Part shown: piece after piece, positions 20,823-27,004 of the stretch
Layout: every line of letters starts with the position of its first letter
Position numbering within the stretch: position 1 is the first letter of the stretch
From: Gammaproteobacteria bacterium MOLA455
GTDB taxonomy: Bacteria > Pseudomonadota > Gammaproteobacteria > Pseudomonadales > Porticoccaceae
DNA length: 64,000 nucleotides
Reading direction: 5' to 3'
Assembly: GCA_000511875.1 (NCBI GenBank)
Contig: AZIN01000003.1
Coordinates: forward strand, 149,034-213,033
Made by a program: the position numbers and the translations under genes
The notes under the pieces: generated by a model
Told to the model about the DNA's origin: nothing
Seen by the model: the letters and a program-made list of their open reading frames with translations, nothing else
Database searches by the model: none

Positions 20823-21311
20823 TTACTCTTCGCCAGATGTGATTTTGACAATACCTTGCTGAGAGCAGTTTGCCAATAGTTGAGCGACAGTTTCTCCGCT
20901 GGGTAGGGCTAACTGAGCGTCGAGGTCCGCCAGAGGCACCAGGACAAATCCGCGTTCAACCATACGTGGGTGGGGAATTGTTAGACGCTCGCTCTCTATT
21001 ACAAAATTGTCATAGAGCAAAATATCCAGGTCCAGAGTCCGCGGACCCCAGTGAATGCTGCGCACCCGGTGTTGCTGTTGTTCTATAGCTTGCAGGGCAT
21101 CGAGCAGATCCAGTGGCGAGAGATCAGTGCTGAGCTGTGCCGCGGCATTGATAAAGTCTGGCTGCTGTGGGCCAATAGGGGGTGTTTGGTAGCGATTTGA
21201 AGTTGCTACGAGCGCTATGCGGGAATGTTGCGACAGTGCCGCAAGGGCACTGTCTAGCTGGCTGTGAGGGCTGTCCATGTTGCTGCCCAGAGCAATATAG
21301 ACAGTTGCCAT
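20823..21311 (-). CDS. folK: 2-amino-4-hydroxy-6-hydroxymethyldihydropteridine pyrophosphokinase
   Basis: HPPK of folate synthesis: transfers pyrophosphate from ATP to hydroxymethyl-dihydropterin. 162 residues. The IALGSNMDSPHSQL opening, PDFINAAAQL, and the two-metal motif RTLDLDILLYDN followed by IPHPRMVERGFVLVPL are all present. Its start codon overlaps the end of pcnB (both at 21311), so the genes are translationally linked, an arrangement common in gammaproteobacteria. Confidence 0.97.
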   Translation of the reverse strand: MATVYIALGSNMDSPHSQLDSALAALSQHSRIALVATSNRYQTPPIGPQQPDFINAAAQLSTDLSPLDLLDALQAIEQQQHRVRSIHWGPRTLDLDILLYDNFVIESERLTIPHPRMVERGFVLVPLADLDAQLALPSGETVAQLLANCSQQGIVKITSGEE

Positions 21312-22672
21312 TATTTCGCTGGGCCTGCTGTAGGCTTGGGACTGTTGCGGCGACGACGACGTTTTTTCGGGCTGCGGTCAGTGGACATAACATCGTCAGC
21401 CATAGTCTGACGGCTTTCATTGTTAGCTTCCTGATAGGTAGTCCACCAAGCGCCGAGACCATCGAGGTCTTCGCCGGCCTGTTCGCGCAGTAGAACAAAA
21501 TCATAGGCTGCTCGAAAACGCGGGTGCTCCATCAGACGCTGGGCACGATTGCCGCCGCGACGGCGCAGGTGCAACTGCAAGTCCCAGATCTCGCGCATGG
21601 GAATACTAAAGCGTTTGGGAATTGCGGTGACTGGAATCTGATTAAGAATCACCTCTCCCGCGGCTTTGCTCAGAGCATAAGGTGGCGAGTTGCCATTCTT
21701 CTCGAAATTGCGGGCGAGTCTCTGCACTACGGGCCACAACAGGGCAGCATAGATAAAGGCGGGAGTAACACGCTGAGAAGCCTGAATGCGTTTGTCTGTA
21801 TTGACCAAGGCCTGAGATACCAGCTTCATAGGTATTCCCTGCCGGTCATTGAGCATAGGGCCCAACTGGGGAACTATATAATCAAATAACCGGTGTTCAA
21901 CCAATATTTTAAAAGTGTCTAAACCCTGGCCACTCATAAACAGTTTCAATGTTTCATCGAACAGTCGCGGTGATGACACCTGCTGCAGGTCGGCGGCGCG
22001 GTGTTTCATTGGATTTGCAGTGGCAGGTTCTATATCAAAACCGAGCTTGGCAGCAAAGCGCGCAACACGCAAAAGGCGCACCGGATCTTCGCGAAAGCGG
22101 GTTTCCGGATCGCCGATAATACGAATAATTTTGGCATTCACATCGTCTATGCCATTGGTGAAATCATGGATGCTATTGGTGCTGGGATCGTAATAGAGTG
22201 CATTGACGGTGAGATCCCGACGTGACGCGTCCTCTTCCACAGAGCCAAAGACATTGTCTCTGGTGAGCAATCCAGAATCTGTCTGCTGGCGACGATTTTT
22301 GCTGGTCGTCTGGCTACTATTAGATCGAAAAGTAGTGACTTCAATAATTTCGCGGCTGAACTGCACATGGACGATTTGAAAGCGGCGGCCGATAATCCGC
22401 GAGCGGCGGAACAATTCTTTCACTTCGTAGGGCTTGGCGCTGGTCGCCACATCAAAGTCTTTCGGTTTAAGGCCGATCAGAAGGTCGCGGACACAGCCAC
22501 CTACCACATAGGCTTCAAACCCGGCCTTCTGTAAAACGTCGACGACTTTATACGCGTCGCGGTTAATCATATCCGCAGAAAGGCAGTGTTGACCGTCACT
22601 AAAAATTTGCCGGCCAGAGGCGCTTTTTGATGATTTATCTCGCTGGAAGAACTTACTTATGCGTTTCAGCAT
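21311..22672 (-). CDS. pcnB: poly(A) polymerase I
   Basis: Adds 3' poly(A) tails that promote RNA decay. 453 residues: nucleotidyltransferase core with VVGGCVRDLLIGLKPKDFDVATSA near 56-77 (catalytic Asp residues), RRDLTVNALYYDP near 160, and a very basic C-terminus (KKRRRRRNSPKP) typical of PAP rather than CCA-adding enzyme. It follows cbrB by 89 nt; in Pseudomonas this interval holds the crcZ sRNA gene, which is missing here. Confidence 0.96.
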   Translation of the reverse strand: MLKRISKFFQRDKSSKSASGRQIFSDGQHCLSADMINRDAYKVVDVLQKAGFEAYVVGGCVRDLLIGLKPKDFDVATSAKPYEVKELFRRSRIIGRRFQIVHVQFSREIIEVTTFRSNSSQTTSKNRRQQTDSGLLTRDNVFGSVEEDASRRDLTVNALYYDPSTNSIHDFTNGIDDVNAKIIRIIGDPETRFREDPVRLLRVARFAAKLGFDIEPATANPMKHRAADLQQVSSPRLFDETLKLFMSGQGLDTFKILVEHRLFDYIVPQLGPMLNDRQGIPMKLVSQALVNTDKRIQASQRVTPAFIYAALLWPVVQRLARNFEKNGNSPPYALSKAAGEVILNQIPVTAIPKRFSIPMREIWDLQLHLRRRGGNRAQRLMEHPRFRAAYDFVLLREQAGEDLDGLGAWWTTYQEANNESRQTMADDVMSTDRSPKKRRRRRNSPKPTAGPAK

Positions 22673-22761
22673 TAAGTGATTGCCGATTAGGTTGTTATTA
22701 GAACTATGAGTTTAACAGAGGAACCAACTCTACGGGAGACTAAAGCGACCTTTGATGGCAG

Positions 22762-24060
22762 TTAGTCGCTGTGCAGCTCATCGCTCTTTTTACGACTGAT
22801 ACCCAGTTTATTGCGTCGCTCCCAAAGGCTCTTACGGCTGATGCCGAGCTTCTTAGCGAGATCTGTCTCGCTCATATTTTCTTGGTTTTCGAGAACGAAG
22901 CGGGTGAAATAATCTTCCAGCGATAAGCCTGCGGGGGCGTCGTAATCCTGGGTGAGACTCTGATCAACTAAGCCTGTACTAGTACGTTTTATTCCTTGCG
23001 TAGGTCTGGGGGCTATTTCTCCAAGGCCGACAAGCTCAGCATCAATCGGTTCTCCTGGTGCGGCCATAATCACTGCCTGTTGCAATGTGTTTTTAAGCTG
23101 CCGCAGGTTGCCCGGCCACTGATAGTCCACCAGAGCCTGAGTGGCTTGTTCAGTTAGTCCCGAGCTGACATCGTCAAAGTGCACCAGAATTGCCTGAGCA
23201 ATCGTAGGGATATCTGTGCTCCGTTGGCGCAGGGTGGGCATGGCTATGCTGACTACATCAATCTCATAGTAGAGATCTTTGCGAAATAGATTGGCTAGGC
23301 AGAGTTTTTCTAAATCCTGATCCGAGGAGCAGATAAAGCGACATTGACTAGTTTGCATTACTCTTAATAACAGCGCCTGCAACGGGGCTGCCAATTCGGC
23401 GACATTATTTAGAAAAAGGGTTGTGCTTGAACTGCTGACATCGAGCTGGCTGGCAAACTCAGCCTCTTTGATGCCGGCGCAGTTAATGCTGATAAAGCGT
23501 TGCCGAGTAGACTTTTTGCCGCTGTGGATAGCCAGTGCCATAGCGGATTTGCCGCAGCCAGTTTCACCCTGGATTAGGATTGGCAGATCGGAGGCTGCGA
23601 CTTTGGGGATCAATCGGGTGATTTTTTTAATTGCTTCACTGGACCCCAGTAACGCTATATCACCTAATGTCTTCGCGGCCACAGCCCGGTGTTTCGATGC
23701 GCTGAGAATACGCCGCACTGACAGCAGCATTTCGTCGTGATCAAAGGGCTTGGAAATATAGTCAACAGCACCCTGGCGCATGGTGTCTACTGCTGAGCGC
23801 AGGCTGGCATAGCTAGTCATGATTAGCACTGGCACTGGATCGACTATTTTAATCAGGTCAGTTCCCAGCTGTCCGGGGAGGCGCAGGTCGCTGATAATCA
23901 GTGCGAAATTAGTGAAGTCAAAATTTTCACGGGCGGCTTTGATACTGACAGCGTCACTGACGTCATAGTCATGGCGCTCGAGCAACTTGCGCAGTGAGAC
24001 GCGAATAATCTCTTCGTCTTCGATAATCAGAATCTGATCTCTGTGGGGCGCGTTGCTCAT
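22762..24060 (-). CDS. cbrB: CbrB-type NtrC-family response regulator with a degenerate AAA+ domain
   Basis: Response regulator partner of the adjacent CbrA kinase; in Pseudomonas CbrB is a sigma-54 activator for carbon and nitrogen use. From the ATG at 24060 the protein is 432 residues. The receiver domain looks functional (phospho-acceptor Asp58 in ISDLRLPG, IMTSY, ISKPFD). The AAA+ domain keeps Walker A GETGCGKS (165-172) but reads NCAGIKEAEFASQLDVSSSS straight into LFLNNV (215-220): the segment that should carry ELFGHEKGAFTGA is missing, the Walker B acids are Asn, and FRKDLYYEI (259-267) has Glu at the second arginine-finger position. A Fis-type helix-turn-helix (LAKKLGISRKSLWERRNKLG) closes the protein. 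It most likely binds DNA without sigma-54 activation. Confidence 0.9.
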   Translation of the reverse strand: MSNAPHRDQILIIEDEEIIRVSLRKLLERHDYDVSDAVSIKAARENFDFTNFALIISDLRLPGQLGTDLIKIVDPVPVLIMTSYASLRSAVDTMRQGAVDYISKPFDHDEMLLSVRRILSASKHRAVAAKTLGDIALLGSSEAIKKITRLIPKVAASDLPILIQGETGCGKSAMALAIHSGKKSTRQRFISINCAGIKEAEFASQLDVSSSSTTLFLNNVAELAAPLQALLLRVMQTSQCRFICSSDQDLEKLCLANLFRKDLYYEIDVVSIAMPTLRQRSTDIPTIAQAILVHFDDVSSGLTEQATQALVDYQWPGNLRQLKNTLQQAVIMAAPGEPIDAELVGLGEIAPRPTQGIKRTSTGLVDQSLTQDYDAPAGLSLEDYFTRFVLENQENMSETDLAKKLGISRKSLWERRNKLGISRKKSDELHSD

Positions 24061-24136: not shown

Positions 24137-27004
24137 TTAATCCAGTTTTATTTTATTGAGATCAAAGAGTAATTCTGCAGTGGTGCCGCGATCACTGTTT
24201 TTTGCCGGACTCGACAGGTTGATTTCACCGCGGAGATTTTTTACTAGATTGAACACCATCCAAAGTCCCAAGCCAGTGCCTTCGCCGGGCTCTTTGGAGG
24301 TTATAAAGGGTTCGAATAGCTGATCCTTAATCGGCTCAGCAATACCGCTACCCTGATCGCTGATCATTATCCGCAGCTTTGATCCATCGGACTGGCAACT
24401 GATCTCGATGGGGCTGTCATCGGTGGTGGCGTCCCGGGCATTGCCCAGCAGGTTAAGAAAAATCTGCACCAGTTGGCGATGGTCGCTGACAATTTCTATA
24501 TTGGCATCAACTAAACAGACAAACTGTTCTTTGCGCTGCTCTTTAGTCAGGCTGAGTATCTGGATGGCTTCCTGCGCCGCCTCTAATACCGAGACGGGTC
24601 GCAGTTGATCATGGTAAGTTTGCTCGCCACGAGAGAAATTGATCAGTGACTGCACGATCACACTGATGCGGTCGGTTTGCGAGAGAATGAGCTCAGCCGA
24701 GGTTTCAATTTCTGCAGTTTCAGTCTCGTGCTGTAAGTTCTGTGCGATGCAGGCAATTCCAGTGACCGGATTGCCGATCTCATGGGCGACGCCAGCCGCC
24801 AGTCGTCCAACCGAGGCCAGGCGCTCATTGTTGATGTAGTTTTGAACTAACAATACTGACTTGGTCTGGTCTTCCACCAGTAGAATTAAATCGTCATCAG
24901 GGCTTATAGCGGTGGATTTTTGCATGCCAAACCATTGGGTTTTACCTGCTACTTTCAGTTCTATACTGTCCTTGCTAGTTTCGCCTTCCTGCAAAAATAA
25001 GCTGATTGCAGAGTGCCAGGGTTCGGGCAGGTCGCTGATCAGACTGCCTGTAACCATCTCGCTGTCGATGCCTGTGTAGCGGACCATGGAACTATTCCAT
25101 TTGATAATTTCGCCGCCCTGTCCCAGAGCAATGATACCAATTGGCAGATTGTCGAGAATTTCCCGGTGATGCATGCGCAGCTTATTCAACTCGCTGGCGA
25201 TACCGGTGAGGCGATCCCCTTCAATGGCCAGTACAGATTCGATCAGATAAATATCGTCCGGCTCGGGGCGCGTTGGTGTCTCCAGGGGTAGCGCCTCTTC
25301 CATTACTTTATAGGCCGCTAACACGCCAAAGTTTAGGGTCAGGGAGGAGTAGAGACTGTCGCGGAGTTTGCGCAGTGCTGCAGGCCGGGTTTCACTGACT
25401 TCAAGATCCAGCTTATGCAGTGCTCGGTCGATCTCCACATCCGCTTCACTGCCGAGCAATTGGCGCAGGCTCAACAGCATCTGCTCAACGGAATTGTGAC
25501 TCAGCTGAACTCGGGCGGGGATATAGATGTTGTCGACCATACAGAGTCGAGCAAAGGATTGCTGCTCCTTGTCCATGGGACTCAGTATGGACAAGATTAC
25601 GCAGAGAAATATATTCACCATCAGCGCTTCAAAGGCCCAAGTCTGCCAGTTTTCCATGCCAAAAATTAGCACTTTGTCGGTCCCTGGCAGCTGCCAGCTC
25701 CAATCGCCAAATAGCATTGGTAGAGCCAGTGTCGCGAGCCATATAGAGACTCCACCAATCAATCCGGCGATCACACCATTGCGATTGATTTTTGGCAGGT
25801 ATATAGAAGCTAGCATGCCCGGTGTTAATTGCGCCAACCCAGCAAATCCCACTAGATAGAGGTCAGTGATGCTGCGAGCTTTGATAATATGGCTGAGTAG
25901 CGCGGCGGCAATAATAAGCCCGGTTGAAACCCCCAGCAGGCGCAGATTAATCCAACGACTTAAGTGGGGCTGCTTATGCAGTGTTTTAGTGGGCAAGATG
26001 AAGCTGTTGAGCACCATTTTAGCTAGCATGGTCGACATATTGCACAGCAGGGCGATGGCTACCAGCACAATACTCGCGGCGCCAAGTCCTGCTGCGATGG
26101 GGTGTTGGCTGAACGCGGGGATGGCAAATAGATAGTCTTGCAGAGGTGATGAGGATTGCACGGCAATACCAGACCACAGCAGTGGGAAGATGGTAATGCT
26201 CGCCAATAGCATCAACAGCGGGTAGGCCCAAGAGCTTACCCCAACCTGGTTGTCGGAAATATGCTCGGAAATAACAATGCTAAAGTTCACTGGCAGGGCG
26301 AAGCTGGCTGCGAGGAAAATAACAAATAAGCTGTAAGAGGAGTCCATGCGCTGGACTATTAAGCGCTGGCCACTGCTGACCACCCATTGGTTCATTTCGC
26401 TGACTCCGCCAAAAATGGATTCGACCGAGACTAGGGCTGAGGTTGCCAGTGCCGCGAGCAGTAAAAAGCCAGCTGCAGCCATCACCCAGCGCAGACTGCG
26501 CGCCATGCCTTGATGGATCGCGCTCCAATTGATGATGATAATAATCGAGACAATAATCAGCCTAAAGAGCCATTTATCACTCTCAAAGAGAAAGTCATGA
26601 ACCGATGACAGCGCTAGCAATTGAGCGAGAAACAGTGGCATGGTGACAATGATCAGACTGCTGCAGGCAATCAGCGCAATAGCTCGACCGCGAAAACGGA
26701 AGGTCAGAAAGTCCACCAGAGAGGCGAAGCGAATAATTTTATTGAGTCGGCGGATCGGGTAAAAAATCAGCGGTGAAAAGAGAAACACCATGGTAAAGGC
26801 AAACAGCGCTAGAACTACGCTAAAGCCGTAGCGGCCAGCCATCTCGATGGTGCCAGTGGCCAGCAACGCCCCAGTCCCGGCAAACAGCGCCAGCACCAGA
26901 ATCAGGTTTTGGCTTCGCGCGCCACCATAGACTGCAAGCAAATAGGCCCCCAGGGTACTGGCAATCAAAAAGCCTGTAGCTATAAGGGCTATATCAAGAC
27001 TCAT
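24137..27004 (-). CDS. cbrA: CbrA-type sensor histidine kinase fused to a sodium/solute symporter domain
   Basis: 955 residues. Residues 1-480 form an SSS (SLC5)-like transporter module with about 13 membrane helices; 500-610 is a linker; 615-720 is a PAS domain (NLPIGIIALGQGGEIIKWNSS); the HisKA box has phospho-acceptor His741 in AHEIGNPVTGI; the ATPase domain has N-box Asn855 (LLGNARDA), DQGSGI at 883-888 and GEGTGLGL at 908-915. All catalytic elements of the kinase are intact, in contrast to its partner CbrB. The fused architecture is the CbrA hallmark; in Pseudomonas it senses carbon/nitrogen status and can transport histidine. Its ATG lies within the end of the small cbrX-like ORF. Confidence 0.95.
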   Translation of the reverse strand: MSLDIALIATGFLIASTLGAYLLAVYGGARSQNLILVLALFAGTGALLATGTIEMAGRYGFSVVLALFAFTMVFLFSPLIFYPIRRLNKIIRFASLVDFLTFRFRGRAIALIACSSLIIVTMPLFLAQLLALSSVHDFLFESDKWLFRLIIVSIIIIINWSAIHQGMARSLRWVMAAAGFLLLAALATSALVSVESIFGGVSEMNQWVVSSGQRLIVQRMDSSYSLFVIFLAASFALPVNFSIVISEHISDNQVGVSSWAYPLLMLLASITIFPLLWSGIAVQSSSPLQDYLFAIPAFSQHPIAAGLGAASIVLVAIALLCNMSTMLAKMVLNSFILPTKTLHKQPHLSRWINLRLLGVSTGLIIAAALLSHIIKARSITDLYLVGFAGLAQLTPGMLASIYLPKINRNGVIAGLIGGVSIWLATLALPMLFGDWSWQLPGTDKVLIFGMENWQTWAFEALMVNIFLCVILSILSPMDKEQQSFARLCMVDNIYIPARVQLSHNSVEQMLLSLRQLLGSEADVEIDRALHKLDLEVSETRPAALRKLRDSLYSSLTLNFGVLAAYKVMEEALPLETPTRPEPDDIYLIESVLAIEGDRLTGIASELNKLRMHHREILDNLPIGIIALGQGGEIIKWNSSMVRYTGIDSEMVTGSLISDLPEPWHSAISLFLQEGETSKDSIELKVAGKTQWFGMQKSTAISPDDDLILLVEDQTKSVLLVQNYINNERLASVGRLAAGVAHEIGNPVTGIACIAQNLQHETETAEIETSAELILSQTDRISVIVQSLINFSRGEQTYHDQLRPVSVLEAAQEAIQILSLTKEQRKEQFVCLVDANIEIVSDHRQLVQIFLNLLGNARDATTDDSPIEISCQSDGSKLRIMISDQGSGIAEPIKDQLFEPFITSKEPGEGTGLGLWMVFNLVKNLRGEINLSSPAKNSDRGTTAELLFDLNKIKLD

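Follow-up and report, generated by a model that had tools for sequence, protein, structure and literature searches.

The window, a stretch of 64,000 nucleotides from Gammaproteobacteria bacterium MOLA455 (genome G000, 2.6 Mb and 97.8% complete; contig 3, positions 149034-213033), harbors a cbrB-like response regulator gene whose product lacks the GAFTGA loop. It is quite probable that sigma-54 activation was abandoned in the common ancestor of the SAR92-type clade and that the reduced CbrB now serves sigma-70 regulation. The circuit as a whole appears to have shifted from sigma-54 to ordinary promoters, as GAFTGA and the neighbouring sigma-54 promoter disappeared together. The window gene lies on the same strand as cbrA and pcnB and between them, and its product carries a phospho-Asp receiver and the CbrB-type HTH (SETxLAxKLGISRKxLWERR); hence, it is a true CbrB orthologue. 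The CbrA-like kinase of the window showed no match to the Pfam sodium/solute symporter family at E 0.001; an SLC5 domain has been described in print for Pseudomonas CbrA. The features of the locus are collected in Table 1.

Table 1. Features of the cbrB locus in the window (residues are numbered in the CbrB protein)
Feature	Position in window	Strand	Basis
cbrB-like response regulator, GAFTGA-less, 432 aa from ATG 24060	22762..24060, stop included	minus	synteny cbrA-cbrB-pcnB
Receiver domain, residues 8-120, phospho-acceptor D58 retained	23701..24039	minus	Pfam PF00072
AAA+ remnant, residues 137-345; Walker A present, acidic residues of Walker B missing, as is the second arginine finger	23026..23652	minus	
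18-residue L1/GAFTGA deletion and LFLNN replacing LFLDE, residues 208-219	23404..23439	minus	alignment
Second deletion, 13 residues of the L2 region ahead of sensor I, at approximately residues 237-238	23347..23352	minus	alignment
FRKDLYYEI, arginine-finger region, residues 259-267	23260..23286	minus	
Fis-type DNA-binding domain, residues 376-426, almost invariant across orthologues	22783..22935	minus	
cbrB-pcnB gap, 89 nt	22673..22761	minus	
cbrA-like histidine kinase, 955 aa (HisKA, HATPase, PAS)	24137..27004	minus	
pcnB, poly(A) polymerase, syntenic anchor	21311..22672	minus	

Protein sequence alignment of the window CbrB with 91 orthologues, with the canonical CbrB of G236 as the reference for deletion sizes, revealed two deletions, one with GAFTGA and one before sensor I, which together remove 31 residues; the two deleted regions are what we take to be the loops L1 and L2. 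The earlier note on this DNA, made from the sequence alone, had described GAFTGA as missing and the Walker B acids as replaced, and had proposed alignment with close relatives as a check. The alignment bears the description out: Asn occupies the place of both acids, and neither an intact GAFTGA nor a Walker B acid was recovered. The stretch said to run directly into LFLNNV is real (NCAGIKEAEFASQLDVSSSSTTLFLNNV, encoded at 23401-23484, minus strand), except that two Thr residues between SSSS and LFLNNV had been left out, and the loss is indeed large, its size being 31 residues in two deletions and not about 20-25. The divergence of the arginine-finger region was correctly described, with the Arg of the second finger replaced by Glu, as were the open frame and the retention of Asp58, Walker A (GETGCGKS) and the Fis-type domain. 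A frameshift or base-calling error was ruled out, since the same losses are common to the reduced orthologues of the clade, which are 95% to 33% identical to the window CbrB.

Residues were tallied over full-length rows, 40 of them canonical (15 from the family) and 38 reduced, the latter all family members. The Walker B Glu was found in 40/40 canonical vs 0/38 reduced rows, and the second arginine finger was Arg in 40/40 vs 4/38. The Walker A Lys was present in all 40 canonical rows and in 32 of the 38 reduced ones, the other six having Arg, and the phospho-Asp was present in 38/40 and 38/38, respectively. Three reduced rows from the order level retained Walker B and both arginine fingers. 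Of the hallmarks of a sigma-54 activator (bEBP), the window CbrB thus has Walker A but neither the GAFTGA loop L1, nor acids in Walker B, nor the Arg of the second finger, and its cognate neighbouring target has no -24/-12 promoter. From these residues we infer that the ATPase activity of the reduced CbrB has been lost. The AlphaFold2 model (pLDDT 82.8 on average, and 71-95 in blocks of ten residues along the remnant) nevertheless predicts a folded AAA+ remnant with good confidence. The receiver itself varies elsewhere. Two 1.4-Mb genomes without a CbrA match, G010 (L076) and G005 (L077), keep a CbrB in which the receiver acid pocket and Lys are changed, and in G217 (L124) and G216 (L126) of genus g23, where no CbrA match was found, a canonical GAFTGA-bearing CbrB has Ala as the phospho-acceptor.

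The cbrB-pcnB gaps were scored for -24/-12 sites with a single fixed consensus at a cut-off score of at least 15. Among the 147 genomes with both genes on one stretch, a site was present in 93/96 GAFTGA-intact vs 2/51 non-intact genomes, and shuffled gaps reached the cut-off in 105 of 2940 cases. The coupling between loop and promoter gave a Fisher value of 9e-33, which is no gauge of the number of independent events because the genomes are related; independent support for the coupled loss comes from three clades (f1, f43 and G100) and perhaps G051. The intact exceptions were G040, with a weak site, and G091 and G128, with a 76-nt gap, and the non-intact genomes with a site were G013 (weak, TGGCAG, which may be chance) and G156 (good). 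G107 was classed as no-DE solely through one unread base. Within 1200 nt below cbrB in named genomes (n = 80), a site was found in 68/71 intact vs 0/9 lost loci, a set that overlaps the 147 genomes (e.g., L256 is G056). The 147 were drawn from 174 loci with a cbrB frame. The 27 left out were L044, which comes from the genome that L135 already represents, L130 of G197, whose cbrB is divided between two frames, and 25 loci lacking pcnB on the stretch. The last group includes the contig-end loci L081 and L129, two reduced loci (L099, L104) and 21 GAFTGA-intact loci from the order level. Fourteen of these 21 were scored up to 1200 nt downstream, with L190 and L205 offering just 365 and 0 nt for scanning, and seven had a site while seven had none; hence, the coupling holds chiefly under cbrB-pcnB synteny. 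That the -24/-12 promoter next to cbrB disappeared along with GAFTGA supports the rewiring away from sigma-54 that the earlier note had proposed.

Two arrangements at these gaps deserve description in their own right. In G156 (L134, G156:C20:15000-22000), which departs from the coupling, a CbrB without AAA+ lies beside a good -24/-12 promoter and the RNA, so that domain loss apparently preceded promoter change, perhaps as a recent loss or with another activator in place. In G128 (L179) and G091 (L185), with canonical CbrB and the 76-nt gap, the RNA has been lost or moved while GAFTGA stays.

The 64 rows from the family comprised 15 full-length canonical proteins, 38 reduced ones (399-462 residues, frame open in all), nine without any AAA+ domain and two contig-end fragments. 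In a PcnB tree of 144 genomes, all GAFTGA-less family members except G156 formed one clade of 43 rows with an SH-aLRT of 98, corresponding to the SAR92/HTCC2207 kin. Three distinct groups within it lack AAA+ (G239/G247/G251, G017/G018/G034 and G006/G020), and a fourth loss occurred outside it in G156, which has the canonical G235 as its sister; these event counts are valid for this tree only, owing to its midpoint root and 42 weak inner branches out of 141. The nine AAA-less proteins, of 182-193 residues, consist of receiver, short linker and HTH and are encoded between cbrA and pcnB. Pfam analysis of two of them detected the receiver alone, and the structural model of an AAA-less protein was weak (mean pLDDT 66.7) and was left out of the argument. 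The window CbrB, with its AAA+ remnant between receiver and HTH, is not of this RegA/PrrA type. GAFTGA was also lost independently in family f43, by deletion in G092 and G129 and by change to DALPGA in G185 and GAFAAA in G158, and in G100 of family f9, by deletion; G051 has GAFSGA.

The canonical gaps of the family contain, in order, half-sites GTTAC/GTAAC, the -24/-12 site, a AANAANAA array, a box reading GGATGGATTGC or a variant of it, and a terminator, and this layout is that of crcZ. The CrcZ family RF01675 was called by Rfam in 3/19 order-level loci, while nothing reached the gathering score in the window or in the 31 loci scanned from the family. Reduced relatives still have the RNA: 31 sequences could be aligned, and a model built from them matched 37 genomes out of the 50 in the genus, the model's own sequences included. 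Hfq was present in 8/8 genomes checked. In the gaps that are at least 250 nt long and have an identifiable RNA core, CTTG-N19-TANAAT was found 78-92 nt ahead of the core in 21/36 non-canonical vs 0/16 canonical gaps and in 17 of 23500 shuffles, individual sites scoring just moderately over shuffles. On the strength of its conservation, this element is a putative sigma-70-like promoter replacing the -24/-12 site, which would favor the move to sigma-70 suggested in the earlier note. An operator, TGTTWC-N5-GTAACA, was present in 12/36 non-canonical gaps and 1/16 canonical gaps and was absent from the relatives closest to the window. In nine gaps it reads TGTTTC-N5-GTAACA and starts 61-62 bp before the CTTG promoter in eight and 72 bp before it in the ninth, a difference of about one helical turn.

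The same elements bear on the sign of the regulation. The reduced CbrB could be mainly a repressor or roadblock, with the small RNA constitutive and nothing activated by CbrB, a reading that overlaps with sigma-70 regulation at large and reverses its sign. Five congeners (G058, G008, G062, G014 and G063; L228-L232) have neither cbrA nor cbrB and keep the RNA between gluQ and pcnB, which fits RNA transcription free of an obligate activator, and the compact operator is missing from 24 of the 36 non-canonical gaps. However, an operator 61-72 bp upstream of the CTTG element occupies the typical place of an activator and does not lie over the promoter, and receiver and HTH are almost invariant; repression as the main role is therefore rather doubtful, and sigma-70 regulation without that restriction is preferred.

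The window subclade has lost both the small RNA and its promoter at the cbrB-pcnB gap. The gap measures 89 nt in G000, G001, G023, G032, G056, G064 and G069, whereas G060 and G061 have gaps of 124-166 nt; RNA model R1, at stricter filter settings, had no match in G000 or in the eight other subclade genomes. Relocation of the RNA within the window genome was accordingly rejected. Pairwise dN/dS between G000 and G056 was 0.034 for the receiver, 0.072 for AAA and 0.007 for the HTH. Over 25 genome pairs, many with synonymous distances close to saturation, all defined values were at or below 0.36, and in window-subclade pairs they were below 0.12 per domain where defined, apart from a receiver value of 0.13, for which one row was truncated. 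AAA dN was two to three times receiver dN in the four near-window pairs (G000 with G056, G064 and G069, and G064-G069), the ratio being 0.8-4.4 in 17 reduced pairs vs 0.4-1.9 in eight canonical pairs. The AAA constraint is relaxed on the whole, with ranges overlapping those of canonical pairs. It is very improbable that the window cbrB is a decaying relic heading for loss: this would fit the relaxed AAA constraint, the vanished RNA and the absence of CbrB and CbrA from several small-genome congeners, but the low dN/dS of every domain in the subclade and the 38 open reduced frames out of 38 speak against it. The earlier note's choice of selected divergence over a broken gene is likewise upheld by the low dN/dS and by the lack of a stop in the 38 reduced family rows. 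Since purifying selection persists where the RNA is gone, cbrB of the window subclade has other targets, through which the regulator would be kept under selection.

The possible loss of RpoN, which the earlier note had raised, was refuted, because rpoN is intact in the window genome as a 494-codon frame with the RpoN box ARRTVAKYR. The gene was found in 54 of the 56 genomes searched and in 42/42 of good quality, the two without a match being 71% and 75% complete. Six other full-length sigma-54 activator domain matches occur in the window genome, all with G[AS][FY]TGA. With rpoN and these loop-bearing activators at hand, the reduced CbrB could still work with sigma-54 by joining another activator, either passively or in mixed oligomers. 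The -24/-12 site next to the AAA-less CbrB of G156 would suit such a role, as would the Caulobacter NtrC variants described as raising sigma-54 genes (PMC12421884); the absence of a -24/-12 site in 49 of the 51 non-intact genomes makes it highly unlikely.

Under the preferred reading of sigma-70 regulation, CbrA would phosphorylate D58 of the reduced CbrB, which, probably as a dimer, would bind TGTTWC/GTAACA half-sites and, through contact with RNA polymerase or by obstructing it, control ordinary sigma-70 promoters. What is left of AAA+ would merely be a folded spacer or dimer scaffold, and it could for that reason be deleted outright in relatives. Against this reading stands the GAFTGA-less NtrC of Caulobacter, which is described as requiring ATP binding and hydrolysis and of which variants increase some sigma-54-dependent genes (PMC10274813, PMC12421884). 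Published accounts of Pseudomonas CbrB describe the same half-sites as non-palindromic subsites 12-16 nt apart and a protein that barely depends on phosphorylation and binds several subsites as a monomer (PMC6296734). We conjecture that this weak dependence and monomeric binding may have eased the change. A little better than evenly supported, in our judgment, is a longer series: a sigma-54 regulator and the promoter of its target passed jointly to sigma-70, the regulator was then trimmed four times to a RegA/PrrA-like receiver-HTH protein, and the wider subsites became a compact 17-bp palindrome in some lineages. If true, this conversion series would show a stepwise origin of RegA/PrrA-like regulators.

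A perfect TGTTAC-N5-GTAACA is present in the window genome at L218:3691-3707 (G000:C1:1497190-1497206), ∼190 bp upstream of a DUF3450-ExbB-type operon. The palindrome, with the same half-sites as those of CbrB, precedes this operon in several genera of the family; in the context survey, the minus-strand loci L235, L238, L239, L242, L244 and L249 were not used. The exact form occurs about once per genome, ahead of the operon in most cases examined, and none was found in the 20 genomes of genera g93, g96, g97 and g100. It was present somewhere in 45/54 family genomes with a CbrA match vs 10/58 without. The region upstream of DUF3450-ExbB showed no -24/-12 site, even where CbrB is canonical. The operon is a possible second CbrB target, a candidate suggested by the shared motif. 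As the palindrome occurs with canonical CbrB as well, and once (in G029) without CbrB, it may be read by another factor. A genome-wide regulon defined by the compact palindrome is for these reasons no more than a lead.

Proteins of the NtrC family without GAFTGA have been known singly, and an exit from sigma-54 without a broken circuit is hardly ever visible. Here, one order shows intact, reduced and AAA-less orthologous loci with matched promoters, and thus the order of the steps is testable. An automatic label of 'sigma-54-dependent regulator' would mislead for the reduced CbrB forms. In the literature searched on CbrB and GAFTGA and on CbrB in SAR92, Porticoccaceae or Cellvibrionales, which covered few subscription papers, no report of such a switch was found. 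In the accounts consulted, CbrAB-CrcZ is described as a system that only Pseudomonads, or only Pseudomonadaceae, possess (PMC6296734, PMC8871633), and the present loci extend a CbrAB-CrcZ-like locus to marine SAR92 kin and other genera.

The window locus resembles the Pseudomonas CbrB system in the synteny cbrA-cbrB-(RNA)-pcnB, the receiver and the Fis-type DNA-binding domain and differs from it in lacking GAFTGA, the L2 region, Walker B, the -24/-12 promoter and the RNA; in its canonical relatives the resemblance extends to the gap, which contains subsites of the TGTTAC/GTAACA type together with a sigma-54 promoter. The RNA of the relatives is similar to CrcZ (RF01675) in its place between cbrB and pcnB, its AANAANAA motifs and its terminator, but is shorter. 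Among solved structures, the PDB matches of the window model begin with Brucella NtrX (5m7p, 5m7o and 5m7n) and include NtrC1, LuxO and VpsR; NtrX shows 25% identity and a full-length TM-score of about 0.46 and belongs to another pathway with another domain arrangement. RegA, PrrA and ActR are response regulators composed of a receiver and a Fis-type HTH. The nine AAA-less relatives have just these two parts and are likened to them by architecture alone, having originated, unlike them, at the cbrB locus as members of the CbrB family. GAFTGA is described as required to engage sigma-54, and relatives without it, namely NtrC of R. capsulatus and Caulobacter, TyrR, DhaR, HupR and VpsR, as acting at sigma-70 promoters (PMC3162934, PMC10274813, PMC12421884). 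The window CbrB is comparable to these regulators in the missing L1 and the retained HTH; an action with sigma-70 would fit the promoter-like sequences of its relatives. It differs from them in that the L2 region and Walker B are also gone and in that the joint change of regulator and promoter can be traced across a clade, up to the complete loss of the AAA+ domain.
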